From NCBI GenBank assembly GCA_019637955.1, contig JAHBUS010000001.1:372001-436000 (forward strand): a stretch of DNA of 64,000 nucleotides, read 5' to 3'. A program made the position numbers and the translations under genes. A model generated the notes under the pieces. The model saw only the letters and a program-made list of their open reading frames with translations, did no database searches and was not told the origin of the DNA. Shown piece by piece: positions 21,104 to 37,971 of this stretch. Every line of letters starts with the position of its first letter. Within the stretch, counting starts at the first letter, position 1. The stretch is from Pseudobdellovibrionaceae bacterium (lineage in GTDB: Bacteria > Bdellovibrionota > Bdellovibrionia > Bdellovibrionales > Bdellovibrionaceae).

Positions 21104-21122
21104 CGTTAATCATTTTGACCAA

Positions 21123-21145: not shown

Positions 21146-21163
21146 ATTTTATAACCTCGTTTC

Positions 21164-22495
21164 ATGATGAAAAAGTACTGCTTCCACGTTCTTTCGGCCG
21201 TCTCATTCCTGGCGATCCTCTTTGCCTCGCTCGCCGGAAAAGCCCAAACGCCCGTGACGCTCCAGCAGGCCGTCGACTTGGCCTACTCGCACTCGCCGCA
21301 AATTTTAAAAGCCCGGTCGAGCGCCGAAGAGGCCTCCTGGAAACGCGTCGAGGCGCAAGCGACGTACCTGCCCACGCTGACCGGATCGGTCAATTACTTG
21401 GCGGACAAGCGCTACATGCTGACCGACGTCACCCTGCCCTCGTCTCCCGCGCCGATCACCATTCCGCAGATCGTTCCCACCACCATTTATAGCCTGACCG
21501 CGCAGTACAACTTGTTCGATGGGCTGGCGAGCACGAACCGCTTTCTCTCGGCACGCAAGTTCGAGAGCGCGGGGCAAAAAGAATCCGATTGGGCGCGCTT
21601 TCGCGTCGCCCGTGAGATCCAACTGCAGTTCTATAAAGTCCTCGCCTCAAAAACTTTGAAAGAGGTCGCCTCGGCGAACGTCAAAGTTCTCGAAGACCAT
21701 CTCAAAGATGTCGGTAACTTCCGCAAAGCCGGCATTTCCACCAATTACGATGTTCTTCGCGTTGAAGTTCAGGTTTCCGAAGCCCGCTCCGAACTGATGA
21801 ACGCGGAAGACAACGTTTTGATTGGCGAAGGCCGGTTGGGAGAGGCGCTGGGCGAAGAGGCCGCCTTCGATCCCCAGGGCGAACTCCCCGTTCCCAAGCC
21901 CGAGATGATCGCCAAGCTCGACGACCGCGACGTCGAATCGCGCCCCGACCTTGCGGCCATGGCCCTCAAGACCGAAGGCATGGACGATCTGGCCACGGCG
22001 GCTTCGAGGCACTGGGTGCCCCGCGTGTCTTTGTTCGGCACTTATCAATTCTACAACAACCGCACGAACGAAACCTTTAACAATGAAGACTTCCGCGAAG
22101 CGTATCAAGTCGGCGTGGCGCTGACCTGGAACTTCTTCGATGGGTTTTCGCAAATGGCCAAATCCGGCCAGGCCTTGGAGCAAAAGCGCCAAACCGATCT
22201 CTCTCTCCGGCAAGCGCGCCTGAAGGCCAAGCAAGATGTCGATCTCTGGAAACGCAAGTTTCAATACAACTGCGCAGTTTTCCGCTCGCGCCAAAGTGAT
22301 GTCGAAAAAGCGAGCGAGAGCGTGCGTCTCGCCAAAGAGGGCCGCCGCGTGGGCGCCCGCACCGAAACCGATCTCTTGGACGCGGAGGCCGAACTTCACC
22401 GCGCCAAGGCCGGAGCCGTGAACGCGCAGATCGGCGCCCTCGAAGCGTTGATCAACTTGGAACTCGCCACCGGCCGCAACTTGTCTCAACTCTAA
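21164..22495 (+). CDS. TolC-family outer membrane efflux protein
   Basis: Outer-membrane channel subunit (443 aa) of a tripartite pump. Signal peptide (CFHVLSAVSFLAILFASLAGKAQT), then TLQQAVDLAYSHSPQILKARSSAEEASW, the classical OEP helical repeat start. A second repeat begins near RPDLAAMALKTEGMDDLA. LFGTYQFYNN and ALTWNFFDGFSQMAKSGQA mark the two barrel/helix junctions. It is the first gene of the operon, followed by the EmrA-like and EmrB-like genes with short gaps. Start at the ATG at 21164 just past the operator. Confidence 0.92.
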   Translation: MMKKYCFHVLSAVSFLAILFASLAGKAQTPVTLQQAVDLAYSHSPQILKARSSAEEASWKRVEAQATYLPTLTGSVNYLADKRYMLTDVTLPSSPAPITIPQIVPTTIYSLTAQYNLFDGLASTNRFLSARKFESAGQKESDWARFRVAREIQLQFYKVLASKTLKEVASANVKVLEDHLKDVGNFRKAGISTNYDVLRVEVQVSEARSELMNAEDNVLIGEGRLGEALGEEAAFDPQGELPVPKPEMIAKLDDRDVESRPDLAAMALKTEGMDDLATAASRHWVPRVSLFGTYQFYNNRTNETFNNEDFREAYQVGVALTWNFFDGFSQMAKSGQALEQKRQTDLSLRQARLKAKQDVDLWKRKFQYNCAVFRSRQSDVEKASESVRLAKEGRRVGARTETDLLDAEAELHRAKAGAVNAQIGALEALINLELATGRNLSQL

Positions 22496-22522
22496 TTTTT
22501 AAAAGAACCAACGAGGACTCAA

Positions 22523-23368
22523 ATGGAAAAGAAACAGAAAATCTTCACGGCACTCGGCGCGCTCGCGGTCTTGGGCGGCGGCTACTTTCTTTATGAACAC
22601 TTCACTTACGCCACCACCGACAACGCGCAGATCGAGGCGCATTCGGTGATGCTCGCGCCCAAGGTGAGCGGCTTCATTCAAGCCGTCAACGTCACCGAAG
22701 GCCAGCACGTGCAGAAGGACGACATCCTCGTCGAAATCGACGGGCGCGATTTCGAAAATACGCTCCGCCAGGTCAAAGGCGAGCTCACCTCGATCGAAGC
22801 GCGCAAACGCGACGCCGAAAAGAACTTCAAACGCCTTGAAGACCTGGTCTCGAAAGGCGCGGTTTCGCAGCAGCAGTTCGACACCTCCACCGCCACCTTC
22901 GCCGAGGTGCGCGCCAAGTATGAGGCGATTTCGGCGCAGGTGGCGCAAGCCGAACTCAACCTGGCCAACACCAAGATCCGCGCGCCTGCCAACGGATTTA
23001 TCGCCAGAAAATCCGCCGAGGTCGGCCAGCTCGCCGCCCCGGGTGTTCCGCTCGTGGGATTTGTGAGTTCCGAATCGCGTTGGATCACCGCCAACTTCAA
23101 AGAGACCGAAGTCGCGGATATTAAAATCGGCGCCCCGGTCGACATCAGCATCGATGCCATTTCGAGCGGTTCTTTTCACGGCAAGGTGGCCGCGATCAGC
23201 TCGGCGACCGGCGCGACCTTCACGCTCTTGCCGCCCGACAACGCCACCGGCAATTTCACCAAAGTGGTTCAGCGCGTGCCGGTGAAAATTGAGTTCGACA
23301 GTCTGACGCCCGAGCAAATCGAAATGCTGCGCGCCGGCCTTTCCGCGTTCGTCAAAGTGAGAAAATAA
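22523..23368 (+). CDS. HlyD/EmrA-family membrane fusion protein
   Basis: Periplasmic adaptor (281 aa) joining the MFS pump to the TolC-like channel. One N-terminal membrane anchor (FTALGALAVLGGGYFLYEHF). The biotinyl-lipoyl half-motifs are SGFIQAVNVTEGQHVQKDDILVEID and IRAPANGFIARKSAEVGQ in shorter blocks, with a short coiled-coil hairpin between them (about 75-145). It is shorter than E. coli EmrA (about 390 aa) because the hairpin is reduced. RBS GAGGA lies 7-8 nt upstream. Confidence 0.92.
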   Translation: MEKKQKIFTALGALAVLGGGYFLYEHFTYATTDNAQIEAHSVMLAPKVSGFIQAVNVTEGQHVQKDDILVEIDGRDFENTLRQVKGELTSIEARKRDAEKNFKRLEDLVSKGAVSQQQFDTSTATFAEVRAKYEAISAQVAQAELNLANTKIRAPANGFIARKSAEVGQLAAPGVPLVGFVSSESRWITANFKETEVADIKIGAPVDISIDAISSGSFHGKVAAISSATGATFTLLPPDNATGNFTKVVQRVPVKIEFDSLTPEQIEMLRAGLSAFVKVRK

Positions 23369-23386
23369 ACTCCGGGGGGGGCTCTC

Positions 23387-24949
23387 ATGAGTCGCAATTC
23401 GATGCTGATCGTTTTCGTGGCGGTGCTCGCGAGCCTGCTCGAGATCATCGACACGTCCATCGTGAACGTGGCCCTGCCTTCAATGATGGGAAACTTGGGC
23501 GCGACCCTTGAAGACATCTCGATGGTGATCACCGGCTACGCGATCGCCAACGCCGTCGTTCTGCCGCTTTCGGCATGGCTGGGTGAGCGGATCGGACGCC
23601 GCAAATACTATCTGGGCTGCATTCTCTTCTTCACCGCGACGTCGGTGGCCTGCGGCTTCGCGCCGAACCTGTTTTTGCTGACCGTCTTCCGCATCCTGCA
23701 AGGGTTGGCGGGCGGCGCGCTTCTCCCCACCTCACAAGCTTTGATCTACGAACAGTTTCCCAAAGAAAAAGCGGGCATGGCCGGCGCCATCTTCGGGATG
23801 AGCGTGATGATCGGCCCGACATTGGGTCCGGTCATGGGCGGTTACCTCACCGACGAGTTCGGCTGGCGCTCGATCTTCAACGTCAATCTTCCCCTCGGTC
23901 TGCTCGCCTTTTTCGTCGGCCTCGCGGTCATTCGCAACCCCGAACACTCCAAACAGCCTGAAGGCGCGGTTCGCCCCAAACTCGATGCGGTGGGCTTGGG
24001 TCTGTTGGTCGCCGGGATCGGATGCTTGCAGTACGTGCTCGAGCGCGGTGAGGCCGACGACTGGTTCTCGTCGACCGCGATCATTGTGAACACCATTTTG
24101 GCCGTCGTGTGCCTCCCCACCTTCGTTTGGTGGGAACTCAAAGTTGAAAATCCCATCATCAACATCCGCCTCTTCAAACAGTCGATCGTGCGCAACGGCA
24201 CCCTACTCATGATGTTCGTGGGCTTCTTCTTGTACTCGGTGGTCTTTTTGCTGCCGGTCTTCGTGGGCCGCGTGTTTCATTACGATGCGACCCAGACCGG
24301 CGCCCTGTTCATTCCGGGCTCGCTGCTGACCATGGCCTTGATGCCGATGATCGGAAAACTCATGCAAGCCGGAAAGAACCCCAAGATTCTGATCCTGATC
24401 GGGTTCTTGAGCATCGAACTCTGCCTGTACATGATGACCCTGTTTTCGCCGCTCACCTCGAAGCCCGAATTGTACATGATGCTCTTCGTGCGTGGCTTCG
24501 CGTTGGCCTTCTTGTTCGTGCCGATCAACTCCTCGATCCTGAGCCAGTTTCACGGCGCGGCCCTCGGCCAAGTGTCGGGCCTCTTGAATCTGTTCCGGCA
24601 GATCGGCGGCAGCGTGGGCATCGCCCTGGTCGGGACGCTGCTCAATTCGCGCAGCCATCAGAACTACCTGGATCTGACGTCGAAAGTTTCGATGCTCAAC
24701 CCGAACACGCAGGCGTTCGTGAACCAAACGTCTCAGGGCCTTTCGAAAAAAATGGTCGAAGACATGGGACGCGCGAGCGGACACGACGCGACCTTGCAGA
24801 TCTTGTATTACAAAATTCAGAATCAGGTGTTCATGATGAGCTTTCTCCAGCTGATCACGGTGATCATGATCCTTTTCTCGCTGGCCTTCATCCCGCTTTA
24901 CCTGCTCCGCCTGCGTGAAAAACCGGTCTTGGTCACGGACGCCCACTGA
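23387..24949 (+). CDS. DHA2-family MFS multidrug exporter (EmrB/QacA type)
   Basis: Proton-driven drug exporter with 14 predicted membrane segments, 520 aa. Motif A-like WLGERIGRRKYYLG and the motif C region MSVMIGPTLGPVMGGYLTDE identify the 14-TM DHA2 subfamily; ASLLEIIDTSIVNVALPSM is the standard first segment (motif D1). Last gene of the tolC-emrA-emrB operon, ending before a 365-bp gap. Export substrates are unknown; the MarR regulator suggests induction by lipophilic or phenolic compounds. Confidence 0.93.
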   Translation: MSRNSMLIVFVAVLASLLEIIDTSIVNVALPSMMGNLGATLEDISMVITGYAIANAVVLPLSAWLGERIGRRKYYLGCILFFTATSVACGFAPNLFLLTVFRILQGLAGGALLPTSQALIYEQFPKEKAGMAGAIFGMSVMIGPTLGPVMGGYLTDEFGWRSIFNVNLPLGLLAFFVGLAVIRNPEHSKQPEGAVRPKLDAVGLGLLVAGIGCLQYVLERGEADDWFSSTAIIVNTILAVVCLPTFVWWELKVENPIINIRLFKQSIVRNGTLLMMFVGFFLYSVVFLLPVFVGRVFHYDATQTGALFIPGSLLTMALMPMIGKLMQAGKNPKILILIGFLSIELCLYMMTLFSPLTSKPELYMMLFVRGFALAFLFVPINSSILSQFHGAALGQVSGLLNLFRQIGGSVGIALVGTLLNSRSHQNYLDLTSKVSMLNPNTQAFVNQTSQGLSKKMVEDMGRASGHDATLQILYYKIQNQVFMMSFLQLITVIMILFSLAFIPLYLLRLREKPVLVTDAH

Positions 24950-25314: not shown

Positions 25315-26373
25315 ATGAAACAGATGATGCTCAAACAGTTGGTGCTGACGCTTGCGGCGATTTCCTTTCTGTCGGCGTGCGATAAAGGCGAGCGCTCTTT
25401 TTCGATCCTCGCGGACGAATCCAACTTCTCGCAGTCTCCTGAGTTCGAAATCGTTCCCCAAAAGATCGATATCTTATGGGTGATCGACAACTCCGGCTCG
25501 ATGGCCACGTCGCAATCGCAGCTGGCGAACAATATGAACCGCTTCATCTCGCGCTTTCAGTCTTTGAAGTACGACTTCAATATGGCCGTCACCACGTCGG
25601 ACGCGGTCTTCGGCCAATTTTGGGGCGACGACTCCACACGTCTTTTGCGTGATGGGATTCCCGGCGAAACTTCATCGGGCGTTCGCATCATCAACAAAGA
25701 CACGCCGAATATGAGCAACGTGTTCATCACCAACGTCATGCAAGGAATCGATGGCAACGGTGATGAGCGTGCCTTCTCGAGCTTCCAATCGGTTTTGACT
25801 TACGGCCCGAACGCGGGTTTCCGTCGTGCCGGTGCCTTCTTGGCCATCATCATCCTTTCGGACGAAGATGACTTCTCGGCCACCACCGACGCCTACCTGG
25901 GCAACAACTACAACGATTCACGCCTGATTCCGGTTGCCAACTACAAGACCTTCCTCGATGGCCTGGTCGGTGTGGGCAATCACAGCGTGAACACCATTTC
26001 GATTTTGGACGAGGCTTGCCGCGTGCAGCTCGCGGACTCGTTCGCCGGCCGCATCGTGGGCCGCCGTTACAACCAACTCGCCGACCTGACCGGAGGCGTG
26101 AAGACTTCGCTCTGCGGAAACTTCGGCGACAACCTTCAGCTCATCTCGGACACCATCATCAATCAAAAGCTGGAAGTGTCGTTCAAGCTCACACGCGAGC
26201 CCCAAGTGTCTTCGATCGTGGTCCGCGTGAACGGCGCCTTGATTCCTCAAGATGCCGCCAATGGCTGGACTTACAATGCGTCGACCTTGACGCTCACCTT
26301 CCACGGAACCTCGGTTCCGCCGGCAGGGGCTTCGATCTCGATCGCCTACGACCCCGTTGGACCCAAGAACTAA
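25315..26373 (+). CDS. vWA-domain lipoprotein (CglB-like adhesin candidate)
   Basis: Predicted outer-membrane lipoprotein, 352 aa. Start at the ATG 5 nt after AGGAGG; signal peptide with lipobox FLSAC (Cys22). A von Willebrand A domain follows: KIDILWVIDNSGSM with the MIDAS residues Asp58, Ser60 and Ser62, then a Thr-bearing MAVTTSDAV and an acidic LSDEDDFSATTDA. The last 65 residues form a beta-rich tail (VRVNGALIPQDAANGWTYN). In Myxococcus gliding the surface adhesin CglB is a vWA outer-membrane lipoprotein. First gene of the motor operon. Homology to CglB itself is inference. Confidence 0.85.
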   Translation: MKQMMLKQLVLTLAAISFLSACDKGERSFSILADESNFSQSPEFEIVPQKIDILWVIDNSGSMATSQSQLANNMNRFISRFQSLKYDFNMAVTTSDAVFGQFWGDDSTRLLRDGIPGETSSGVRIINKDTPNMSNVFITNVMQGIDGNGDERAFSSFQSVLTYGPNAGFRRAGAFLAIIILSDEDDFSATTDAYLGNNYNDSRLIPVANYKTFLDGLVGVGNHSVNTISILDEACRVQLADSFAGRIVGRRYNQLADLTGGVKTSLCGNFGDNLQLISDTIINQKLEVSFKLTREPQVSSIVVRVNGALIPQDAANGWTYNASTLTLTFHGTSVPPAGASISIAYDPVGPKN

Positions 26374-26380
26374 GGAGCGG

Positions 26381-26974
26381 ATGAGTATGTTGAACATGGA
26401 AATCGCGACTTCGAACGAATGGCACTTGATGAAGGGTGAGCACCAATACGGTCCTTACACCTACGAAGCCATGGTTCAGATGAAGCAGAACAACCTGCTC
26501 TTCGACTTCGACTTCGTTTGGTCGCCCCACATGGACCAATGGACGATGGTGTCGGACTTGGCCGAGTTCTCGATGGACCGCATGAGCCGTCTCGTCGAGA
26601 AATCGCCCAGCTCCGAGGCGTTCAACAAACGCAGCCATGACCGCGTGGTCGTGGATCTGCCCTGTCTCGTTCACGACGAGACGCGCTTGTGGAAGGGCCG
26701 CGTGCAGAACCTCAGCGAAGGCGGTGCCTTGATTCTGGTCGAGAATCCGCTCTTTTTGCCCGGCGACATCATCACGCTGCACGTTCGCGGCGCAAACGGG
26801 ATGGAAAAGCCGTTCAACTGCACGGCGCAAATTTTGAACAAACGTTTGGTGAAAACAAAAATCCATCACGACACCGCCCTTCATTACGCCGTGAAATTTT
26901 TGAACCTCACCACGATCGGGACGACTGAAGTCAGCCGCATGGTCGGCCAGGCTTTGAAAACGAAAACAAAATAA
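26381..26974 (+). CDS. GYF-domain plus PilZ-domain protein
   Basis: Cytoplasmic protein of 197 aa. Residues about 9-60 form a GYF_2-like domain (WHLMKGEHQYGPYTYEAM, then VWSPHMDQWTMV). Residues about 75-175 form a PilZ domain with both c-di-GMP motifs intact: RSHDR (RxxxR) and NLSEGG (NxSxxG). The ATG at 26381 has AAGGAG upstream and starts 7 nt after the vWA stop. A GYF domain also occurs in Myxococcus GltJ. The fusion suggests c-di-GMP control of the motor encoded by the next genes. Confidence 0.88.
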   Translation: MSMLNMEIATSNEWHLMKGEHQYGPYTYEAMVQMKQNNLLFDFDFVWSPHMDQWTMVSDLAEFSMDRMSRLVEKSPSSEAFNKRSHDRVVVDLPCLVHDETRLWKGRVQNLSEGGALILVENPLFLPGDIITLHVRGANGMEKPFNCTAQILNKRLVKTKIHHDTALHYAVKFLNLTTIGTTEVSRMVGQALKTKTK

Positions 26975-27008: not shown

Positions 27009-27731
27009 ATGACTTCATTTCTGCAATTCATCAATGATTCGGGCGTCGTCGGCTGGTGCATCATGCTCCTTGGACTCGGTTCTTTGGCACTGATCGTTGA
27101 ACGTGCCAACGTTCTGTACTTCAAATTCGGTATGAACACCGATGAGTTCATGACCAAGATCCAAACTTTGGTTCTGGCTCGCAAAACGGACGAGGCTTTG
27201 GTTCTTTGCAACCAAATGCAGGGCAAACCCCTCGCCAACTCGTTCAAAACCATCCTCGAAAAAGCGGACCGCGATGATGACACCATCTTCCAGGCTCACG
27301 ACATCGCGATGGCCGAGAACATGCCCCACTTGACCAAACGCCTTCACTACCTCTCGATGCTCGCCAACGTGGCGACACTGATGGGTCTCTTGGGTACCAT
27401 CCACGGTCTGATCCTCTCGTTCGCCGCGGTCGCGCAGGCCGACCCCGCGCAGAAGCAAGCCATGCTCGCCAACGGTATCGCCGTTTCGATGTACACAACG
27501 GCTTTGGGTCTCGTGGTGGCGATCCCCGCGATGATCTTCTACTCGTTCTTGGTTTCGCGCCAAAATGAGCTCGTGGAGCAAATGACCGAGAAGTGCGGAA
27601 AATTGACCGAGATGCTGACCGGTTCGCACATCCAGTCGCTCTCGCGCCAGGCGATCTTCCCCGACAGCATCGGTAAAGACACCGTCGCTGCAGGTAAGAC
27701 AACGCCTCCTCCTTCGAACCGCGCTTCTTAA
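27009..27731 (+). CDS. TolQ/ExbB/AglR-family motor channel subunit
   Basis: Inner-membrane subunit of a proton-driven motor, 240 aa. Three membrane segments: GWCIMLLGLGSLALIVERA (about 16-34), VATLMGLLGTIHGLILSFAAVA (about 120-140) and GIAVSMYTTALGLVVAIPAMIFYSFL in two blocks (about 158-185). The GTIHG and TTALGL motifs are the channel signature of TolQ/ExbB/MotA proteins. AGAGGAGAGAG precedes the ATG. Followed by two ExbD/TolR-like genes, the AglR-AglQ-AglS arrangement of gliding machines. Confidence 0.92.
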   Translation: MTSFLQFINDSGVVGWCIMLLGLGSLALIVERANVLYFKFGMNTDEFMTKIQTLVLARKTDEALVLCNQMQGKPLANSFKTILEKADRDDDTIFQAHDIAMAENMPHLTKRLHYLSMLANVATLMGLLGTIHGLILSFAAVAQADPAQKQAMLANGIAVSMYTTALGLVVAIPAMIFYSFLVSRQNELVEQMTEKCGKLTEMLTGSHIQSLSRQAIFPDSIGKDTVAAGKTTPPPSNRAS

Positions 27732-27747: not shown

Positions 27748-28296
27748 ATGAGAAAACGGTTTAAACCGAAAATTTCACACAGCTACGAGTTTGAGCTCGA
27801 CCTCGCGCCGCTGCTCGCGGTGATGGTGAAGCTCGTTCCCGTGCTGTTGATCTCGAGCGCCTTCGTGCAGGTCATGGTCATCGAGACCGACCTGCCCCAG
27901 GCCGTTAAAGAAGCCGTGCAGAACCAAGAAGACAATAAAGACCTCGCTTCGGTGCAGATCGATGTCTCTCGTCAAGAGGGCATCAAAGTGATCGTCGCGA
28001 AACAAGGTCAACAGTCGGTCGAAAAGATTCCCGTCCTCACCGACGGCAGTTTCGATCTGCCGGCTCTGCACAAGCAATTGCAAAAGGTGAAAGCCGAAAA
28101 CCCGAAAGTGTTTAGGCTCGAACTCGTCCCTGGCGGTGACATCTCTTACAACGAGATCGTCAAAATCATGGATGAGGCCCGTAAGTCGCGAGACAAAGAC
28201 GTGCGCTTCCCGGTGTGGGATTCAACCAAGCAAAAGGACGTCGAGACGGACTACATGTTCCCCGACGTGACTTTCGCGAATGTGATGGAGGGCTAA
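27748..28296 (+). CDS. ExbD/TolR-like subunit lacking the conserved Asp
   Basis: 182 aa: short cytoplasmic N-terminus, one membrane segment (about 19-41) and a periplasmic peptidoglycan-binding-type domain. In TolR/ExbD the segment reads PLLD or PLID with the proton-carrying Asp; here it reads APLLAVMVKLVPVLL, so Ala24 sits at the Asp position. The remaining fold (VSRQEGIKVIVAKQ, GDISYNEIVKIMDEAR) is family-typical. It starts 16 nt after the TolQ-like gene and ends 3 nt before the second ExbD-like gene, so the two probably form a heterodimer. Confidence 0.85.
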   Translation: MRKRFKPKISHSYEFELDLAPLLAVMVKLVPVLLISSAFVQVMVIETDLPQAVKEAVQNQEDNKDLASVQIDVSRQEGIKVIVAKQGQQSVEKIPVLTDGSFDLPALHKQLQKVKAENPKVFRLELVPGGDISYNEIVKIMDEARKSRDKDVRFPVWDSTKQKDVETDYMFPDVTFANVMEG

Positions 28297-28299
28297 ACG

Positions 28300-28797
28300 A
28301 TGGCTTACCGACGTAAGACCCCCGATTATGCGCCCAAAGCAAAAACCTTCGCTTTGAACATCACGTCGATGACGGACATGTTCACGATCCTGCTCGTGTT
28401 CCTGCTGCAGACGTACTCAACCGCTGATTTTAAAGTTGAGCCCGTTCAAGGCGTGAGTCTTCCTCTTTCGAACGCAACAACGGAGCCGACCAAAGCGGTC
28501 CAAGTTTCGTTGACCAAGACCGAACTGATTATCGAGGGACGCACCATCGCTTCGCTCGATCAAGGTCACTTCGGCAAGGCGGATCTCGAAAGCTCGGACT
28601 CGAACTTTATCAAGCCGCTGTTCTCGGAGCTTGAAAAATTCGCCAAAGAAAAAGCGGACGATCCTTCCGTTAAGGAAGGAAAGGTCGTTTTTCAGGCCGA
28701 TTCATCGCTCAGCTACGACATGATCCGTAAGGTCATGTACACGGCCTCGATGGCCGGCTTCCCGAAACTCAAAATGGCAACTGTCGTGGGGAATTAA
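28300..28797 (+). CDS. ExbD/TolR-family motor subunit with proton-carrying Asp
   Basis: 165 aa with one membrane segment, LNITSMTDMFTILLVFLLQTY, which retains the conserved Asp (Asp26) that carries protons in ExbD/TolR/AglQ-S stators. The periplasmic part ends with DSSLSYDMIRKVMYTASMAGFPKLKMA, the standard family C-terminus. Immediately follows its Asp-less partner. With the TolQ-like protein it should form the ion channel that energises the TonB-like and TPR proteins encoded downstream. Confidence 0.9.
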   Translation: MAYRRKTPDYAPKAKTFALNITSMTDMFTILLVFLLQTYSTADFKVEPVQGVSLPLSNATTEPTKAVQVSLTKTELIIEGRTIASLDQGHFGKADLESSDSNFIKPLFSELEKFAKEKADDPSVKEGKVVFQADSSLSYDMIRKVMYTASMAGFPKLKMATVVGN

Positions 28798-28801: not shown

Positions 28802-31800
28802 ATGAAACAGCTTCTTCTGACCGCCCTCATCGTCTTGACCTGCAATCCCGTTTGGGCTCAAGCCAAAACGGACAAAGGTCTTTTGCCCGAGCTCAAACTC
28901 GACAAGAGCAATGAGGATCTCAATCAGAAGAAGGCCGTTCAATCGGAGGTCTTGATCACGAAATCCGAGATCAAGGCCATTCAAGCCCTAAACGCCGTTC
29001 TAAAAAAACAAAAAGGCTCGCCCAACGAACCCGATCTCTGGTTCCGCCTGGCCGAGCTCTACATGCGCCGCGCGAAATCGGGCCGTTTCTTCGACCTGAC
29101 TCGCGGTCAAGAAGACTCTCCGGTGAAGTTCGCTCCCCCGGACGTGCGTGACGAAAGCGCCGTCGCCAACCTCAAACAGGCCATCGGCATTTACACCAAA
29201 ATCGAGCGTGAGTTCCCGAATTTCCGCGAGATGGACGTGGCGATGTTCAACAACGCCTTCGCCAGTCAACAAATCGGCCAAAAGAAAAATGCCGAAGCCA
29301 CTTACGCGCGTCTGATTTCGAAATACCCGAAATCGATGCTGCTCCCCGACGCCTTCCTGGCTCAAGGGGAGATGTACTATGACGCCGGCCAGTTCACCTT
29401 GGCGCTGGAATCTTTCAAAGCCATCGAGAAGTTCCCTGGTTCGCGCGTTTATTCCTACGGTTTGTACAAGCAAGCCTGGGCTCACTACAATTTGAAACAA
29501 AACGACGAGGGCATCAATAAACTCCTCGACGTCGTAAAATTCTTCGACCCCAAGAACACGCAGAAAACGCGCGTGTCGCACAACCTGCGTTCGGAAGCCC
29601 TGCGCGATCTCGCCCTTTTCTTTGGTGAGAACAAATCGGCCGATGAGGCTTACGCGTTCTTCGCTAAAATCTGCACGCCCGAAGAGCTGGGCGAGTCGAT
29701 GATCAACCTCGGAAAACTCTACGACAGCCACGGCCGTCAAAAAGAGATGAACGTGTTCCTCGCGGAATACATCAAAAAGAACGACGATTCTCCTTTACGC
29801 ATCAAAGCCGAAATGCTCTTGATCCAAGGGAACGAAACTTTGAAGAACCGTCCCGAAGTCATCAAGCATATGGAAGCCGCCGCCGACGTTTGCCGTCCCA
29901 ATTCTTCGTGGCGCAAACTCTACCCCACGTCGTCGGAGGGAGATTGCGACTACGACTTGGCCAAGACCAATCTCGACATCGCCAAAAAATGGTGGGAACT
30001 CTGGCTTAAAAACAAATCGAACAAAGATATGGCGGATTTGACCGAGCGCGCCTTCAAGATCCACTTGGACCGCGAAGACCCTTTGAAGCCTGATGCCAAG
30101 TCGCACTATGCCTACGCCGAACTCTTGTTCCAACAGGACAAGTTCCGCGAAGCTTCGGTTCAATACGAATTCGCCGCTCAGAAATCGACCGACACCCAGA
30201 TCGCCCACGACGCCGCTTACTCGGCGCTCGTGTCGCTCGAAAAGGCCTCGCAGAAAAGCGAGAAGTCCGGCGACAACGCCAAACAAGTCGAGCTCGGCCA
30301 GACTTATTTGAAAAAATACCCTGCGGGCGTTCAAGCTTCTCAGGTCAAATACAAAATTGGTTTCATCGCCTACGAAGAGAAGAACTTCGCCGAGTCTGAG
30401 AAATGGCTGGGGCCCATTGCCCTGGATACCAAGCAAGACCCGACTTTGCGCACCCGCAGCCAAGACTTGATGCTCGACATGCTCAACGCCCGCGGCGATC
30501 TCGCGTCACTGCGCGACTTCTCTAAAAAGGTGATGGACGGCTCCGACAATGCGGACCGCAAGAAAAGCATGCATAAAATCATGCAGGAAGCCGACTTCAA
30601 CAGCATCCAGAAGGATATGGAGAAGGCTCAAGTCACCGAGAATATTCAAAAGCTCGTGACCTTCCACAACGAGAACAAAGCCTCGGGCCCCGCTTTGGCT
30701 AAAAAAGCGTTGAAGCAGGCGATGAGCCTCGCGTTCACGAACGGCCGCTCGCTCGAAGGCGCGGACCTGGCCATCCAGTACGCCCGCACTTATCCCGACG
30801 ACACCGAGACGACCGCGGCCCTGCGCGAAGCCGCCAAACATTACAACGAGCAAGGCTTCATGCTGCGCGCGGCCAGCACCTTCGAACTTCTGGCTCCCCG
30901 TCTCAAAGGCCAAGAGCAGACGCAAGTCTATGAGGCGCTCAGCGAGATCTACGTTCTTGAAAACCGCAAGCAAGACGCCCGCGAGTTCCTGGGCAAACTT
31001 CTGGACGGCGCCGATAAAAAAGAGCAAGGCAAAATCTACTCGCGCCTGATGCAGACTTACAAAGGCGAAGAGTCGTCGGCCGACTACGCCAAACTCGAGA
31101 ACAAGATCCTGTCGCTGAACATTCAGCCTTCGGCGTCGGAAATCTTGGTCAAACGCGTGCAGAAGCTCTTCGACAGCAAAAAATACACCGAAGCTTTCAA
31201 CTCGGCCAAATCTCTGGTCGGTTCGGATGCACCCCCCGCGATCCGCGCCCAGGCCCGTTTGATTCAAGCCAAAGTTCTCGAAACCGAGATGACGTCGGCG
31301 AGCACCAAGACCACGCTTGAGCGCCTGCCCTTGGTTCTGTCGATCAAAACCGAGAAACTCGAAAAAGCTCAAGCCGGCTTCTTGGCCGCGGCCAGCTACT
31401 CGAACGATCCCAACGTTCAGCTCTCGACGCTCGAGGGTCTGGCGCGCATCTACAAAAACTACGTGGAAACCGTGGGTTCGCCCATCATCAAAACGTCGAT
31501 GTCGGCGGAAGAGTCCAAGGCTCTGAAAGACGAGCTCACCAAACTCGTGACGCCCATCGAGCAGAAACAAAAAGACATCGAGAAAAAACTCATGGCGTTG
31601 GCGAAAGCCGAGAAAACGGCCACCACGGCGGAACTTGATTTCGTGAATCTGCCTTTGAATGAAACCGTGAAACCCCGCATCCCCGCCATCGCCTTCGAGA
31701 ACATGTCGCCCTACTTGCCCAAACTCACGCAAGTCGAAGGCCTGTTCGTTGAACGCGACAACGCGGTGACCGGCGCCTGCCAAACCGAAGCGAAAGACCT

Positions 31801-32548
31801 GCAAAAAGACCTCGCCGGCTTGATGGCCCTGGCCAACCGCTGCGTGGCTCAGAAGAAATTCACGCAGATCGAAAAAATCGCGGCCCGCATGGCGGAGCTT
31901 GAGCCCAAATCGGGCGCGGCTCCCTACTACCTGAGCCTCGCGGCGATGGGATTGGGCCTGAAAGAAAAATCGCTGTACCTGATCGAACTCGCGCTCAAGA
32001 AAAACTCGGACCGCACGTTCTTCTGGTATCAGAAGGCCGTCGCCCTCGGTGCGACGGGCGATCGTGCCGGTGCCAACCAGTGGATGATCAAAGCGTTCGA
32101 CGAGCGCCTTGATGCTTGGGAAACCAAATTGCTCCACGGCGTGGTGGCCTTCTCGCAAGGCGACTGCTTCTCGGTGACCGATGACTTCAAAGCCCTCCCC
32201 GCGAGCCAGGTTGAAAAATTCGATCTGACTCCCGCTTTCGCCGAGTGCATGGCGCAAAAAGGTGAGATCGACCAAGCCCTGGGCTTCGCGCAGAAGTCTT
32301 ATGATACGAAGAAGTCCCTGACTTTGGCCCTGCAGCTGGGACACATGGCTGAAGTCTATAAATCCGATTCGAAACTCGCGGCCCAAGCTTACGAGAAGGC
32401 CCGCTCGGTGTCGTCGGACGAGACCCAAAAAGAATGGCTGAAACGCAAAATTGAATGGCTTAACAACCCCGGAGCCGCCGTCTCCGAGACCTCTTCGCAC
32501 GTCAGTTCACAGGTCGCTCGAGGCACAGGTTTGGGAGGTGCACAATGA
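28802..32548 (+). CDS. Large periplasmic TPR protein
   Basis: 1248 aa with a signal peptide (MKQLLLTALIVLTCNPVWAQA) followed by many tetratricopeptide-type helical pairs over nearly the whole length, for example DLWFRLAELYMRRAKSG, LPDAFLAQGEMYYDAGQF, GSRVYSYGLYKQAWAHYNLK and PYYLSLAAMGLGLKEKSL. Very large TPR proteins are scaffolds of Myxococcus Glt machinery (GltD/GltI types), but the individual orthology here is inference. Begins 4 nt after the ExbD-like gene and overlaps the next gene by 4 nt. Probably periplasmic, binding envelope partners. Confidence 0.85.
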   Translation: MKQLLLTALIVLTCNPVWAQAKTDKGLLPELKLDKSNEDLNQKKAVQSEVLITKSEIKAIQALNAVLKKQKGSPNEPDLWFRLAELYMRRAKSGRFFDLTRGQEDSPVKFAPPDVRDESAVANLKQAIGIYTKIEREFPNFREMDVAMFNNAFASQQIGQKKNAEATYARLISKYPKSMLLPDAFLAQGEMYYDAGQFTLALESFKAIEKFPGSRVYSYGLYKQAWAHYNLKQNDEGINKLLDVVKFFDPKNTQKTRVSHNLRSEALRDLALFFGENKSADEAYAFFAKICTPEELGESMINLGKLYDSHGRQKEMNVFLAEYIKKNDDSPLRIKAEMLLIQGNETLKNRPEVIKHMEAAADVCRPNSSWRKLYPTSSEGDCDYDLAKTNLDIAKKWWELWLKNKSNKDMADLTERAFKIHLDREDPLKPDAKSHYAYAELLFQQDKFREASVQYEFAAQKSTDTQIAHDAAYSALVSLEKASQKSEKSGDNAKQVELGQTYLKKYPAGVQASQVKYKIGFIAYEEKNFAESEKWLGPIALDTKQDPTLRTRSQDLMLDMLNARGDLASLRDFSKKVMDGSDNADRKKSMHKIMQEADFNSIQKDMEKAQVTENIQKLVTFHNENKASGPALAKKALKQAMSLAFTNGRSLEGADLAIQYARTYPDDTETTAALREAAKHYNEQGFMLRAASTFELLAPRLKGQEQTQVYEALSEIYVLENRKQDAREFLGKLLDGADKKEQGKIYSRLMQTYKGEESSADYAKLENKILSLNIQPSASEILVKRVQKLFDSKKYTEAFNSAKSLVGSDAPPAIRAQARLIQAKVLETEMTSASTKTTLERLPLVLSIKTEKLEKAQAGFLAAASYSNDPNVQLSTLEGLARIYKNYVETVGSPIIKTSMSAEESKALKDELTKLVTPIEQKQKDIEKKLMALAKAEKTATTAELDFVNLPLNETVKPRIPAIAFENMSPYLPKLTQVEGLFVERDNAVTGACQTEAKDLQKDLAGLMALANRCVAQKKFTQIEKIAARMAELEPKSGAAPYYLSLAAMGLGLKEKSLYLIELALKKNSDRTFFWYQKAVALGATGDRAGANQWMIKAFDERLDAWETKLLHGVVAFSQGDCFSVTDDFKALPASQVEKFDLTPAFAECMAQKGEIDQALGFAQKSYDTKKSLTLALQLGHMAEVYKSDSKLAAQAYEKARSVSSDETQKEWLKRKIEWLNNPGAAVSETSSHVSSQVARGTGLGGAQ

Positions 32549-32841
32549 CAACAATGGGAACGCGCACCTTTGGTGCGACAACAACTCGACTAGCAAAAAG
32601 TCTGACTCTCTTGCTCGTGGCCGTCTTAGGGCTTGTTCTGGCTCTGCCGGCTCAGGCCAAGACGAAAACTGTCCGAAAAGTTCAAGAAGTGAACTTCGGG
32701 GAGATGAGTCTGAAAGGCACGATTCGCAACCCTGATGGAGCTTACCTGGTGCAGAAACGCGGGATCAAATTCATGCCCCTGTACGACGTACAGAAAGACA
32801 TGGACACCAAAATCCGCGATTCCGTCCAGTATGTGCGATGA
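32545..32841 (+). CDS. 98-aa exported protein of the motor operon
   Basis: Small protein with a long basic n-region, a hydrophobic core (LTLLLVAVLGLVLALPAQA) and a mature part of about 57 residues containing VQEVNFGEMSLKGTIRNPDG, then YLVQKRGIKFMPLYDVQ. I do not recognise a named family. The ATG is coupled to the end of the TPR gene (ATGA), with GGAGGTG upstream, and the stop overlaps or abuts the AgmX-like gene, so it is co-translated with both. A CGCACC-TTT-GGTGCG hairpin lies in the codons just after the start. Confidence 0.8.
   Translation: MTTMGTRTFGATTTRLAKSLTLLLVAVLGLVLALPAQAKTKTVRKVQEVNFGEMSLKGTIRNPDGAYLVQKRGIKFMPLYDVQKDMDTKIRDSVQYVR
32563..32577 (+). repeat. Operon hairpin copy 1 (CGCACC-TTT-GGTGCG)
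   Basis: Perfect 6-bp stem with a 3-nt loop, inside the first codons of the 98-aa gene. Closely similar hairpins recur at 35131-35145 and 37305-37319 in the same operon. Confidence 0.5.
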
Positions 32842-32849
32842 GGATGTGT

Positions 32850-34328
32850 ATGCAAAACTTATTGATTGAACAGCGCGGCCCCAACGGCCTTATGAAAACA
32901 TGGCGTTTGCGTCCTGACCAAGGCTCGGTGAGCTTTGGCAGCTCGAAGTTTGCGGAGCTGCGCTCCCCGATCGAGACCCTCAAGGGCATTCAAGGCGTTT
33001 TCGAGTACCGCGACGACAAATGGGTCTACGTGAATCTCGACGTGCGCACGCAAGAGACCGACAACGTCGTCGAACTCACGTTGGACAAACCCACCGAGAT
33101 CCGTGTCGGCACGATGTCGCTGCAAGTGATTCCGCTCGAAGTGCGCCGCACTTTGTTCCAAAGCCTGGAGAGCGCCGAGTTTCTGAAACCCGCTCCCGAC
33201 CGCAAGCCTTTTCAGTTGGTGACGACTTATCACGGCGCCAAATTGCTCGAGACGTTGGTTTTGCCTCTGGGAAAAACCTTCGTTTCGAAATTCGATGCGA
33301 CCTTCACGAAAATGGCGACTTCGCAAACCGAGTCGTGGATGCGCTCGAAACTGGGCGACCTCGAAATCTCCCAGCGCACCATCTACCTGACGTCGGTCGA
33401 AGCGATGAGCATGATCACCAAAGATCAGCTCATCGACGATGGCGGCCGCAAGACCATGTACGCAACGCTCGCGGGTTCCGCTTTGCTCGCGCTGCTCTTC
33501 TTGCTCTCGCCCAATTCGAAAACCGTGGAAGAGGTGGCCGTGGCCGCCGCTCCCCCGGTGGAGTACCGCGAGATGAAACTTACGCCGCCGAAAAAGAAGA
33601 AACAATCGGCGCCGATGCAGGCGCAAGTGCAGCCTCCGAAAGCGGAGCAGGCCAAAGCCGAATCGGCCCAGCCTGCGGGCGCGGCTCAAGCGTCGGGCGG
33701 CGGCAAGGCGGTCTCGGCGATCAAGGCTCTGGGTTCTTCGCGCATCTCGCAATTGATCGGTAAAATCTCGGCCTCGTCGGCCAAGTCGGCTAACATCGTC
33801 GTGTCAAACGGCGTCGCGGCCGGCTCAGCGCCGTCGGGACGCGCGCTCGCGGCCGTCGGGAACGTGACGACATCGGGCAAAGACTGGTCCGGCGACGGCA
33901 AAGGCCAAGGCGTGCAAATCGGCACGGCGGGCGTTGCGGGCGGCGGCTCGGTGAAAGGCATGGGCGGCATCGCGGCGGGTAAAACCGGCAGCGGCGGCGT
34001 CGGCCTTCTCGAAGAGGATGGCGAAGTGGTGGGCGGTTTGGACCGCGAGGTCATCGCGGCCTACATCCGCTCGAAACTCGGCGAGATCCTTTATTGTTAT
34101 GAACGTCAATTGTCGGCGCAGCCCGACCTGTACGGCAAAGTGGGCGTGAAGTTCACCATCGCCGGGACGGGCCAGGTGGAAACTCAGCGCATCGGCGAAA
34201 CAACTTTGAAAAACGGAACGGTCGAGGGCTGCATCCTCACGCGCGTGGCGAAATGGAAATTTCCCACACCCGAGGGTGGCACGAAGGTGATGGTCACCTA
34301 CCCCTTCCTGTTCAAGAGCACGAACTAA
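32850..34328 (+). CDS. TonB-like protein with AgmX/PglI C-terminal domain (GltG-like)
   Basis: About 492 aa. The N-terminal 100 residues (LIEQRGPNGLMKTWRLRPDQ...) resemble a small FHA-like beta domain by pattern only. Residues about 203-220 form one membrane segment (TLAGSALLALLFLLS), followed by a Pro/Ala/Gly-rich periplasmic linker. The C-terminal domain (REVIAAYIRSKLGEILYCYE, then TVEGCILTRVAKWKFPTPEGG) is the TonB-related AgmX/PglI domain. Cytoplasm-to-periplasm topology fits the GltG/GltJ role of transducing motor force. ATG at 32850 preferred because GAGG lies 6 nt upstream; ATGs at 32838 and 32844 are alternatives. Confidence 0.88.
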   Translation: MQNLLIEQRGPNGLMKTWRLRPDQGSVSFGSSKFAELRSPIETLKGIQGVFEYRDDKWVYVNLDVRTQETDNVVELTLDKPTEIRVGTMSLQVIPLEVRRTLFQSLESAEFLKPAPDRKPFQLVTTYHGAKLLETLVLPLGKTFVSKFDATFTKMATSQTESWMRSKLGDLEISQRTIYLTSVEAMSMITKDQLIDDGGRKTMYATLAGSALLALLFLLSPNSKTVEEVAVAAAPPVEYREMKLTPPKKKKQSAPMQAQVQPPKAEQAKAESAQPAGAAQASGGGKAVSAIKALGSSRISQLIGKISASSAKSANIVVSNGVAAGSAPSGRALAAVGNVTTSGKDWSGDGKGQGVQIGTAGVAGGGSVKGMGGIAAGKTGSGGVGLLEEDGEVVGGLDREVIAAYIRSKLGEILYCYERQLSAQPDLYGKVGVKFTIAGTGQVETQRIGETTLKNGTVEGCILTRVAKWKFPTPEGGTKVMVTYPFLFKSTN

Positions 34329-34374: not shown

Positions 34375-35121
34375 ATGAAAACGGCACTCATGATTTTCGC
34401 AGCACTGACGGCCACAAGCTTAACCGCTTTTGCCCAAGCCAAAGACTCCAAAGACTCGGACAAACTCGACCTGAAAAAGCTCGAGGACAAGTACTGGGCC
34501 GCGAAGGACACCGATTTTTCGGTCGTGCAGAACCGCACGTACAACAAAGAAAAGCGCCCGTTCGTGACTTTGAGCTACGGTCCCATGGTCAATGACGAAT
34601 GGTCGGTCGGCCGCATGACCAACATCGCGGGCGGCTATTACTTCACCGAACGTTGGGGTTTTGAAATCGCGCACGAAATGGGCGACCTGAAAGAGAACGA
34701 CGGGTTGATTCAGATCAAGAGCTACAACGGTCTGCAGCCCAACTACAATAAATTCGTCAGCTACACGTCGGCGAATCTGATCTGGGTTCCGTTCTACGCG
34801 AAAATGAGCTTCATGGATCGCAAGATCGTTTACTTCGATATGCAGTTCGCGCTCGGCGTGGGGAACATGACTTACGAAAATCAGCTCGATCCCTCGGAGA
34901 CCAGCAACGAGAAGAAAACCACCCTGGGTTACAACTTCGATTTCACCCAGCAGCTCTTCTTCAGCGAACACTTCGCGGTTCGTTTAGACGTGAAGAACAA
35001 GTGGTCGAAACAGGATTTGATGCGTTACCGCGTGCAGGGTTCGGGATCGACGAGCCGTGACTTGGGCACCACCAACCGCCAAGACACCTCGATCCTGCTG
35101 GGTCTGACATTCTTCTATTAA
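34375..35121 (+). CDS. Outer membrane beta-barrel protein of the motor operon
   Basis: 248 aa with a signal peptide (MKTALMIFAALTATSLTAFAQA) and an amphipathic-strand region from about residue 60: PFVTLSYGPMV, TNIAGGYYFTERWGFEIAHE, IVYFDMQFALGVG, FAVRLDVKNKWS and a terminal SILLGLTFFY ending in an aromatic residue, the usual outer-membrane barrel signal. It resembles the outer-membrane barrel family found with myxobacterial gliding clusters (GltA/B/H-like). RBS GGGAGG lies 5 nt upstream. It probably gives the complex its outer-membrane exit or anchor. Confidence 0.85.
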   Translation: MKTALMIFAALTATSLTAFAQAKDSKDSDKLDLKKLEDKYWAAKDTDFSVVQNRTYNKEKRPFVTLSYGPMVNDEWSVGRMTNIAGGYYFTERWGFEIAHEMGDLKENDGLIQIKSYNGLQPNYNKFVSYTSANLIWVPFYAKMSFMDRKIVYFDMQFALGVGNMTYENQLDPSETSNEKKTTLGYNFDFTQQLFFSEHFAVRLDVKNKWSKQDLMRYRVQGSGSTSRDLGTTNRQDTSILLGLTFFY

Positions 35122-35130: not shown

Positions 35131-35145
35131 CGCACCGTTGGTGCG
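35131..35145 (+). repeat. Operon hairpin copy 2 (CGCACC-GTT-GGTGCG)
   Basis: Perfect 6-bp stem with a 3-nt loop in the gap between the barrel and the second TPR gene, 25 nt before the next start codon. Flanking bases (GCGACGAC) resemble copy 1. Confidence 0.5.
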
Positions 35146-35170
35146 ACGACTTGTGCCCATCGGAGGGCTT

Positions 35171-37300
35171 ATGCAAAAGGCATCTTGGACCGTCATCATT
35201 CTTGGAACTTTGCTCGCCGCCAACGCATCGGGCGAGCTGAAGAAAAAATCGGAAGGCCGCGCCGCCGATCCTTCACTCAAGGTGAAGCAGTCGGGCGTTC
35301 CGCAGTACGAAATTTACCAAAAGAAAAAAGTCGGCGGAAAGACGGAAGTCTACCGCGTGAAGAACATTCCCCGCCTGAACATCGGCGAGGAGGCGTCTTT
35401 TCAGTCGGCCGCGCTGCAAACTCCTGAGCTTCCCGCAGCGAAGAAATTAAAACTGACGGACGTCAAAAAACGTCCGGAAGTTCCGACGGTTTCGATCGAA
35501 AAGGCTTTGCAATGGGCCGGAAAACCCGTCACCGAGCCCAAAGTCGTCTCGGACCCCACGAAGATCGCCCAAGTTCCGTTTTTTCAAGAGCCCCTGCCCG
35601 TTCAAGATCCCAGCGTGATCAAGCCGGAGTTGAACCAGGTCGAGATCAAAGATCTGACCCCCGTGGAACTCAAAATGCTCCAGGCGCTGATCTTCCTCGA
35701 AATCCAGAAGAACTACCCGATGGCCCTGGGCCTCTTCGCCGAGCTTCTCGACGAAGCCCCCGAATTCCGCACCGAGGCCACCTACAACTTGGCGCTCACC
35801 GGCAAAGGCCTGGGTCTTTACTCGGAGTACCGTCACCAGATGCTCAAGGTTCTCGACGATAAAAAGACCGAGTGGCAAAAGCGCGCCGCGCTCAGCTTGG
35901 TTGAAAGCTCGGCCGAAGGCGACACCTCGTTGGTGTCGATCTTGGATCCCAAACTCGAGAAATTCAAAATCGAACTCGAAAAAACGGATCAGTATCAGCT
36001 CAACCGCGCCAAATACTACTTGGCTCAGGACGATCTGAAAACCGCCATCGCGGCCACCGAAAAAATCATGATGAATTCGCCCCTGTACAATGACGCCCTC
36101 TTCTTAAAAGGCGTTCTGTTGTACAAAAGCGGTCAGCCCGACACCGGCATCTTGACCGTGGCGTCGGCCTTGGCGGAGATCGAGAAAAAAGCGCCGCAAA
36201 GCGAACTCAAGTCGATCGCGGCCCTGACTTTGGCGCGTTTGTATTTCCAGACCGCCGACTACAAATCGGCGTTCCAGACGTACCTGAAAATCGACAAGGC
36301 CCACCCCGAATGGCCCACGGCCATGATCGAACAAGCCTGGTCGCAAATCTTGGCCGGAGATCACGAGGGTGCGGCGGGCAACATGTTCTCGTTGCACACC
36401 GATTTCTTTAAAAACACCTTCGCTCCCGAGTCGTACGTGGTGCGCACCGTGGGCTACTTGAACCTCTGCCAATTCGGCGATGGCGCCCGCGTGGTTCAAG
36501 ACATGAAAAAGCGCTACACGCCCGTTCAAGAGCGCATGCAGCAGTACCAGTCTTCGCACAAATCGGAACTCGAGTATTACGAGACCGTGAAGCGCTTTAT
36601 GAAAGACGGCACCTCGAAAGAGATCGACGGTCTTCCCCGCGGCTTCGTCTGGGCCCTGGCCCGTCACCCGAGCTTTATGCTCGAACAAAAGAACATCAAT
36701 TCGATCGAAGACCAGGTGTCGCGCTACAACCGCATCACCATGGATCTGATCAAACGCGAGAAGTTCCTGCTCGCCGACCAGGCTTTGGTGCGCAACCGCA
36801 TCATCGAGCTGAAGAAAAAACTCAAACCCAAAGAGACCACGCCCGAAATCGCCGATCTTGAAAAGCGCCTGCTCAGCTTTAAGATTCAGCACTTCATCGT
36901 TAAAAAGGCCCGCACTTCGATCAAAGACGTGCGCGCTCAGGGCCTGGCCCGTATCGACAAAGAGAAGCAGGAGCGCAAAGTGGCGGCCGGAAAAGCCCTC
37001 ACGAGCCGTTTCCAGAATCTGCTGAGCAATCTGACCACGTCGCTCGATCAGACCGACGTTCTTCAGTACGAGCTGTTCGCGGGCGCGGGTGAACACCTGC
37101 GCTACCAAGCCGCTGGCGGCGACATCGATCCCAAACAGGCCAAAGGCCTCAAACCCGAAGAGAACCGTCAGCTGAAATGGGAGTTCAAAGGCGAAGTTTG
37201 GGAGGATGAGCTCGGTCACTACCGCTCGTCGCTCAAAAACGTTTGCCCCGAAGTCGAAGACAATGGCGGCAACCAGGTTTCTTCCGTCGATAATAAATAA
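35171..37300 (+). CDS. Second large periplasmic TPR protein
   Basis: 709 aa; the ATG with GGAGG 5 nt upstream gives a signal peptide (ASWTVIILGTLLAANASGE). An N-terminal basic region is followed by TPR-like repeats, for example LKMLQALIFLEIQKNYPMAL, FRTEATYNLALTGKGLG, ALFLKGVLLYKSGQPDTGI and LARLYFQTADYKSAFQTYLK. The C-terminal third is a Lys/Glu/Leu coiled coil ending in a short Trp-containing domain. No lipobox, so likely soluble periplasmic. Probably a scaffold linking the inner-membrane motor to the outer-membrane barrel; the GltC/E/D assignment is left open. Confidence 0.83.
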   Translation: MQKASWTVIILGTLLAANASGELKKKSEGRAADPSLKVKQSGVPQYEIYQKKKVGGKTEVYRVKNIPRLNIGEEASFQSAALQTPELPAAKKLKLTDVKKRPEVPTVSIEKALQWAGKPVTEPKVVSDPTKIAQVPFFQEPLPVQDPSVIKPELNQVEIKDLTPVELKMLQALIFLEIQKNYPMALGLFAELLDEAPEFRTEATYNLALTGKGLGLYSEYRHQMLKVLDDKKTEWQKRAALSLVESSAEGDTSLVSILDPKLEKFKIELEKTDQYQLNRAKYYLAQDDLKTAIAATEKIMMNSPLYNDALFLKGVLLYKSGQPDTGILTVASALAEIEKKAPQSELKSIAALTLARLYFQTADYKSAFQTYLKIDKAHPEWPTAMIEQAWSQILAGDHEGAAGNMFSLHTDFFKNTFAPESYVVRTVGYLNLCQFGDGARVVQDMKKRYTPVQERMQQYQSSHKSELEYYETVKRFMKDGTSKEIDGLPRGFVWALARHPSFMLEQKNINSIEDQVSRYNRITMDLIKREKFLLADQALVRNRIIELKKKLKPKETTPEIADLEKRLLSFKIQHFIVKKARTSIKDVRAQGLARIDKEKQERKVAAGKALTSRFQNLLSNLTTSLDQTDVLQYELFAGAGEHLRYQAAGGDIDPKQAKGLKPEENRQLKWEFKGEVWEDELGHYRSSLKNVCPEVEDNGGNQVSSVDNK

Positions 37301-37319: not shown

Positions 37320-37332
37320 ATAAGAGGTGGAC

Positions 37333-37971
37333 ATGAGAACAACAATCTTTCTGACAGCACTGATGATGGCAACCCCCGCCTGGGCGCAAACGACCGCGCA
37401 AGGAGGCTTGGACCGCCTTCAGACGAACTACAACAATTCGAAATCGAATCTCGAGGATTACCAAAAAAACCTCAAGATCACCGAGGGCAATTTGACCGAG
37501 GTCTCCAAAGCGAAATCGCAGGTGGAAGCCCAGGACAAAGACGTGGCCAAGGCCTCGGAGGAGAACAAAAAGAACCTCGAAGCCGTGGGTGCGCGTGAAG
37601 CCGAGCTGAACGCCCTCATCCAAGACGAGCAAAAACAGATTCAGGCCGAGGAGCAGAAACTGCAAGAACTCGAAAAGTTGACGGCGCAGCTCAAAGACAA
37701 TCAGAAAAAGCGCCAAGCCAACATTCAAAATTACGAAGAGCAAAAACGCGGCGTCGCCTCCGAGAAAAAAGAGTGGCAGTCGCGCCAAGAGCAAATCGCC
37801 AAAACCCAGTCGCAAGTCAAATCGAAGCTCACGGCCTTGAGCGGCCAGGAGACCGATTGGAAGAACAAAAAACGCGGCTACGAAGGCGAAGTGGGCCGTT
37901 GGCAGAAGGAAGTCGACCGCGAGAAGAAGCTCGTCGACACCTACCAGTCCCTGTCCGAAGTGAAGGACTGA
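37333..37971 (+). CDS. Periplasmic coiled-coil protein of the motor operon
   Basis: 212 aa with a signal peptide (MRTTIFLTALMMATPAWAQT) followed by an almost uninterrupted charged coiled coil (about residues 25-205, rich in Glu, Lys and Gln). Two Trp-containing stretches (EWQSRQEQIAKTQSQ, WKNKKRGYEGEVGRWQ) break the pattern. No named family recognised. Last gene of the operon, with GAGG 5 nt upstream and a terminator about 50 nt downstream. A periplasm-spanning rod or spacer is a reasonable guess, no more. Confidence 0.8.
   Translation: MRTTIFLTALMMATPAWAQTTAQGGLDRLQTNYNNSKSNLEDYQKNLKITEGNLTEVSKAKSQVEAQDKDVAKASEENKKNLEAVGAREAELNALIQDEQKQIQAEEQKLQELEKLTAQLKDNQKKRQANIQNYEEQKRGVASEKKEWQSRQEQIAKTQSQVKSKLTALSGQETDWKNKKRGYEGEVGRWQKEVDREKKLVDTYQSLSEVKD

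Follow-up and report, generated by a model that had tools for sequence, protein, structure and literature searches.

The locus reported here has its described counterpart in Bdellovibrio bacteriovorus HD100. Bd1483 was entered in 2008 as a "putative protein in gliding motility cluster" (PMC2277423), Bd1473-Bd1483 was treated as a single operon in 2010 (PMC2797640) and its 5' end encodes the PilZ protein Bd1482 (PMC3271064). For Bd1483 itself, a lipobox and a MIDAS fold within a small β domain are described, as is detection in a surface secretome; its clean deletion leaves predation on E. coli without defect, and gliding is not among the reported phenotypes (PMC11003981). Transposon insertions in aglR (Bd1481) and Bd1483 weaken predation on biofilms to a similar degree: the mutants reduced a biofilm by only 36.2% and 38.4%, respectively, significantly less than the parent did (PMC2277423). 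As Bd1483 heads the operon, the phenotype of its insertion could be polar on the motor genes. Both bd1480 and the vWA gene bd3099 are induced on surfaces, and expression of bd1480 depends on Bd0367 (PMC9140294), the loss of which abolishes gliding (PMC9140294, PMC3271064).

The gliding complex of Myxococcus xanthus includes GltA, GltB and GltC, which interact with one another (PMC4488436). CglD, the product of a contact-stimulatable gliding gene, is a predicted outer-membrane lipoprotein with a vWA domain (PMC4488436, PMC3325183). The first-pass annotation described the present gene as a CglB-like adhesin whose linkage to motor genes would extend an adhesin-motor unit beyond the myxobacteria. 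A MIDAS lipoprotein does head an Agl/Glt-type operon, and the arrangement is conserved and recurrent. As Bd1483 and its operon are published for HD100, however, neither the gene nor its motor linkage is new (PMC2277423, PMC2797640). Within the literature searched, the comparative pattern of vWA-motor linkage is new.

The head gene and the operon

The window, the whole stretch of 64,000 nucleotides that was analyzed, contains an operon of 11 genes in the order vWA-PilZ-AglR-TolR-TolR-TPR-CglF-GltG-OMP-GltC-coiled-coil (Table 1). The vWA gene is the first, as the annotation had it: 365 bases separate its start from the end of the preceding ORF, and only 7 bases lie between its stop and the PilZ start codon. 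The later intergenic gaps are, in order, 34, 16, 3, 4, -4, -4, 46, about 16 and 26 bases. The operon has Agl/Glt-type architecture with a TolQ/TolR-type motor, a GltG-type transducer, a β-barrel and a GltC-type TPR protein. The matches to the GltG and GltC models are strong, yet below the equivalog cut-offs, whereas NF033768 and TIGR04565 are matched above theirs.

Table 1. Genes of the motor operon, with positions in the window.
Feature	Position	Strand	Remarks
vWA/MIDAS lipoprotein, Bd1483 orthologue	25315..26373	+	352 aa; C-terminal β domain about 285-347
GYF_2 + PilZ protein, Bd1482-like	26381..26974	+	RSHDR and NLSEGG c-di-GMP motifs
AglR/TolQ/ExbB proton-channel subunit, Bd1481-like	27009..27731	+	71% identical to HD100
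TolR/ExbD-type subunit 1	27748..28296	+	
TolR/ExbD-type subunit 2	28300..28797	+	
TPR protein	28802..32548	+	1248 aa; N-terminal signal peptide by inspection
CglF-like small exported protein	32545..32841	+	NF033764, 24 bits, under cut-off 90
GltG-like TonB-type force transducer	32838..34328	+	NF033760, 135 bits, under cut-off 650; NF033768 C-terminal domain over cut-off
Outer-membrane β-barrel	34375..35121	+	TIGR04565 OMP_myx_plus, over cut-off
GltC-like TPR protein	35138..37300	+	NF033756, 107 bits, under cut-off 450
Exported coiled-coil protein	37327..37971	+	Final gene in the conserved order

The ATG at 25315 is preceded by an AGGAG Shine-Dalgarno sequence and the reading frame ends with TAA at 26371-26373. 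A sigma-70 promoter scan 5' of the gene gave nothing above shuffles. Further upstream (20609-24949), inspection of the translations showed a TolC/HlyD/EmrB-like efflux set with a MarR-type regulator in divergent orientation.

The signal peptide of the vWA protein is MKQMMLKQLVLTLAAISFLSAC, with the lipobox LSAC and the lipid-carrying Cys22. The DxSxS residues are Asp58, Ser60 and Ser62, exactly as annotated, and loop 3 contributes Asp183-Glu184. The description as an intact MIDAS has to be qualified for loop 2, where Glu151 (in the motif GDER) occupies the position of the Thr of alpha-type I domains. Glu at loop 2 is the residue of the integrin beta-type MIDAS.

The window comes from a genome of 3.77 Mb in the same family as HD100. 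Sequence similarity and gene order identify the vWA gene as the orthologue of bd1483, which has the expected position and strand in the HD100 genome (G004). The family alignment gives 51% identity between the two proteins and the search 53%; they belong to a common clade and share the lipobox, the MIDAS and the β domain, and gene order is identical through the operon. They differ in the residue that follows the lipid-carrying Cys, which is Ser in HD100 and Asp in the window; elsewhere in the family this position is Ser, Glu, Gln, Gly or Ala. In E. coli, Asp at this position is an inner-membrane retention signal, and the Asp of the window copy counts against placement in the outer membrane.

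The neighboring PilZ proteins differ as well. The motif NLSEGG is canonical in the window and non-canonical in HD100. Among the 59 GYF-PilZ partners compared (window and L038-L163), RxxxR is retained in all and [DN]xSxxG in just nine, the window included. To judge from these motifs, binding of c-di-GMP by most of the partners, including Bd1482 of HD100, is doubtful, and control by a cyclic dinucleotide is likely for some of them only.

Predicted fold and relation to CglB and CglD

Generic Pfam vWA models do not match the window protein (best vWA-type E-value 0.02) and sequence searches found no relative of solved structure. The NCBIfam model of a Bdellovibrio MIDAS adhesin, NF052240, scores 53 bits, below its cut-off of 700. 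Thus, the vWA assignment relies on NF052240, the family alignment and the predicted fold. The model was built on an alignment of 33 viral homologues and has a pLDDT of 75.4 and a pTM of 0.73; single-sequence AlphaFold was useless (pLDDT 35). In this model, a Rossmann-like I domain carrying the DxSxS metal residues is inserted in a β domain, as in integrins. The top Foldseek matches in the PDB are integrin beta headpieces (E-value 1.5e-8 to an integrin beta chain), followed by the pilus adhesins PitA and SpaC. VIA-align superposes the model on the integrin alpha2 I domain with a Z score of 18.0 and an r.m.s. deviation of 2.8 (188 aligned residues).

The label "CglB-like" does not hold as a statement of kinship. 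CglB is of a similar size class (416 aa), has a lipobox and a vWA domain with DxSxS (beginning at Asp56, close to the position of Asp58 in the window protein), and its C-terminal β segment is related to that of the window protein. However, CglB has 17 Cys residues (17-21 among CglB proteins) and an invariant GGTPT in loop 2, in contrast to 3 Cys and GDER in the window protein and its family. The CglB model NF033757 (cut-off 200 bits) does not match the window protein at an E-value of 1, nor any of the 143 genomes of the class at 0.001, whereas the same tool finds it in 13 of 13 Myxococcaceae genomes. The absence of CglB from the class agrees with Luciano et al. (PMC3169522). Profile alignment (hhalign) of the window family with CglB reaches 92% over 60 C-terminal columns only, as compared to 277-331 columns for CglD and other myxobacterial MIDAS proteins. 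Orthology to CglB was rejected on these grounds. Closest kinship with generic BatA-type vWA proteins was likewise rejected (hhalign 1.3%).

With CglD, the profile match is full-length (99.5%, E-value 6e-23, 277 columns), which indicates that the I domain and the C-terminal segment are homologous. The CglD model NF033765 scores 30 bits with the window protein, short of its cut-off of 400, and matches 22 of 23 relatives weakly. CglD differs in having long repeats rich in Asp and a tail rich in Cys. A family of myxobacterial lipoproteins of 404 aa aligns with 99.8% over 331 columns. The closest myxobacterial profile is that of proteins combining choice-of-anchor-D with MIDAS (L166, L167, L172; 100%, E-value 6.5e-48, 278 columns across the I domain and the β domain), which differ in their length of about 1000 aa and their N-terminal repeats. 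By these profiles the window family is part of a MIDAS superfamily that includes CglD, and CglB is more distant. In the Myxococcus genome searched, the surroundings of CglB, CglD and the other vWA genes are free of motor genes to a distance of about 10 kb; the same holds for the choice-of-anchor-D proteins in M. xanthus AM003 (G143).

Distribution of motor-linked vWA genes

Conservation of the operon was assessed in 32 sampled genomes of the family. A vWA gene stands at the operon head in 28 of the 32 family genomes; PilZ is missing from one of these loci (L040), and downstream genes are cut off in a few short contigs. The 28 proteins form a single clade (support 0.98-0.99) with HD100 and the window inside. 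All of them have Asp58 and Ser60; at position 62, 27 have Ser and one has Thr. In the remaining four genomes (L048, L049, L059, L060) the closest vWA gene lies elsewhere and groups in the tree with unlinked vWA genes of other families. Two of these genomes have a complete operon starting with PilZ-AglR, without vWA (L123, L124).

In other ARRANGEMENTS beyond the family, the best AglR match served to recognize the motor operon. In 6 of about 25 PilZ-type operons (L128, L144, L145, L146, L148, L156) a vWA gene of a separate clade lies between PilZ and AglR; the other 19 have no vWA gene next to AglR. This second clade comprises 10 sequences (support 0.96-0.999). Two further PilZ-vWA pairs (L161, L162) were picked because of the pair. 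The clade also includes lone PilZ-vWA pairs of HD100, probably Bd3100-Bd3099 as judged by position, and of the window genome (L127, L289). From these lone pairs it appears that, in the family of HD100 and the window, an old PilZ-vWA head became detached and that a Bd1483-type pair took its place. Elsewhere in the class, most families have their nearest vWA homologues away from motor genes. In several families the vWA lipoprotein gene is repeated in tandem, with two or three copies side by side (L089 2.9-7.1 kb, L073, L079).

HD100 and the window genome have two more complete clusters (clusters II and III, the operon described above being cluster I) with the order AglR-TolR-TolR-TPR-(CglF)-GltG-OMP-GltC-vWA, located in HD100 near Bd0411-0421 and Bd2367-2377. 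Relatives of the two tail vWA proteins were fetched from 66 genomes as closest relatives, with neighbors disregarded, and GltC directly precedes vWA in 60 of the 60 loci. A tail vWA gene is also present in G119 (L150), and in G110 (L089) three tandem vWA genes follow GltC at the end of the motor operon.

Vicinity by chance, or merely for co-expression, would explain such loci without any functional tie. In favor of this explanation, the closest vWA genes are unlinked and the motor operons mostly lack vWA in most other families of the class. Nevertheless, vWA genes are linked to motor clusters repeatedly and at fixed positions, in at least three separate lineages and across many genera. HD100 has 9 members of the vWA family, and its motor clusters take up about 48 kb of 3.78 Mb; simple arithmetic from these figures gives 0.1 vWA genes expected inside the clusters, as opposed to 3 observed (P about 2e-4). 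Linkage without function is thus very improbable.

The four motor clusters of HD100 differ in expression (PMC2797640; PMC12546842). The one nearest to Myxococcus aglRQS, Bd0828-Bd0838 (PMC3169522), contains the aglS that is needed for predation (PMC6561027). Neither in HD100 nor in the window genome does this cluster carry a vWA gene (L290, L293). Its gene order also differs (OMP-GltC-TPR-CglF-GltG-AglR-TolR-TolR).

Since the aglRQS-nearest cluster is a different one, without vWA, and the four are expressed differently, cluster I might serve another outer-membrane job, such as Nfs-like or TonB-like transport or organization of the surface, with the vWA protein as a receptor, a substrate-capture or an assembly subunit. 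Core complexes of Agl/Glt type do occur in bacteria not known to glide and as non-motility copies in M. xanthus (PMC3169522), and Nfs paralogues are named in PMC4488436. On the other hand, bd1480 is induced on surfaces and requires Bd0367, a protein without which gliding is lost (PMC9140294, PMC3271064), and Bd1483 was detected in the surface secretome (PMC11003981). These findings speak against a non-gliding job, which we consider unlikely.

Proposed adhesin-motor unit

We propose that the Bd1483-type protein is the MIDAS adhesin of an Agl/Glt-type motor, the strokes of which would be converted to traction on a bound surface. We give this reading a probability of roughly 60%. The lipid anchor would most likely reside in the outer membrane, and the integrin-like I domain, set into its small β domain, would hold a divalent metal by Asp58/Ser60/Ser62 and Glu151 and thereby bind a ligand on a surface or on prey. 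The AglR/TolR-type proton motor may drive the GltG-type transducer, which in turn would move an outer-membrane platform of the β-barrel, the GltC-type TPR protein and the CglF-like protein. If this platform holds the lipoprotein, motor strokes would become traction on whatever surface the vWA domain has bound. The GYF-PilZ protein probably serves as a gate on assembly or activity that responds to a cyclic dinucleotide. The vWA protein would accordingly work like CglB while standing outside the CglB family. The analysis shows the gene structure, the lipobox, the MIDAS residues, the fold class, the operon order and its conservation, the clade structure and the repeated linkage of vWA genes to motor clusters; the location of the protein at the outer membrane or cell surface, its ligand binding, its physical coupling to the motor and its role in gliding are what we infer.

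GltC being a component of the M. xanthus gliding machinery, a gene adjacent to it could well encode a partner of the platform. Where a lipoprotein shares its operon with the motor or, as in the sister clusters, directly adjoins GltC, the most natural reading is that it serves as the platform's grip. The repeated recruitment of vWA genes to motors supports the unit, and this recurrence strengthens the idea without proving it. The many vWA-free operons of other families, the four family genomes with their vWA gene elsewhere, the vWA-free cluster nearest to aglRQS and the silent deletion of bd1483 count against it.

The same adjacency to GltC in clusters II and III can be read differently, as GltC is a soluble periplasmic protein in M. 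xanthus. The vWA lipoprotein might face the periplasm and act there as a scaffold, structural or regulatory, for the motor platform, never meeting an outside ligand. The Asp after the lipid-carrying Cys of the window copy would suit this arrangement, vWA domains often act inside protein complexes, and one further Cgl lipoprotein, CglC, is oriented towards the periplasm (PMC4488436). It is harder to reconcile with the almost fully conserved metal-site residues of the head clade and with a predicted fold of the integrin and pilus-adhesin type. Furthermore, the orthologue is found in the surface secretome, and Bd0875-mCherry, of the same superfamily, was detected on invaded prey (PMC11003981). 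A periplasmic scaffold is therefore quite improbable.

Beyond cluster I, the adhesin-motor unit can be extended, as a tentative suggestion that we hold possible, to the class as a whole. Within the Bdellovibrio class, Agl/Glt-type motors may have acquired dedicated "feet" independently from several MIDAS-lipoprotein lineages, each vWA-bearing cluster having its own adhesin with an integrin-beta-type metal site that stands in for CglB. Cluster I would encode its foot in the leading gene, clusters II and III directly behind GltC, and the clusters of other families between PilZ and AglR. If so, one cell runs several motors with different grip. Single deletions may then be masked by the other motor-linked vWA genes, which fits the silent deletion of bd1483. 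Bd1483, the Bd3099-type gene and the tail vWA genes of the Bd0411-0421 and Bd2367-2377 clusters are the named adhesin candidates, by which the partnership of adhesin and motor is directly testable in Bdellovibrio.

MIDAS proteins apart from motor genes

Bd0875, the MIDAS adhesin described in PMC11003981, resembles the window protein in its lipobox, in the MIDAS inserted in a small β domain and in the GDER of loop 2. The window protein, however, has no inserted segment matching the Bd0875 cap. No motor gene is present in the 12 kb examined around Bd0875. The gene assigned to Bd0875, at 827 kb, fits the published Asp66 and Glu213 (PMC11003981) given a GTG start, which supports the assignment of that genome to HD100. 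The choice-of-anchor-D and MIDAS proteins of Myxococcaceae seem uncharacterized.

The same architecture of MIDAS and β domain is encoded on 53 IMG/VR contigs (L227-L279; for example L227 5125-6813 and 7975-8853, and L246 5188-6804). The viral proteins inspected over their whole length combine a lipobox with choice-of-anchor-D-like repeats, and their contigs carry sigma-factor-like genes. To judge from these features, the viral MIDAS protein is a putative phage-borne, adhesin-like lipoprotein.
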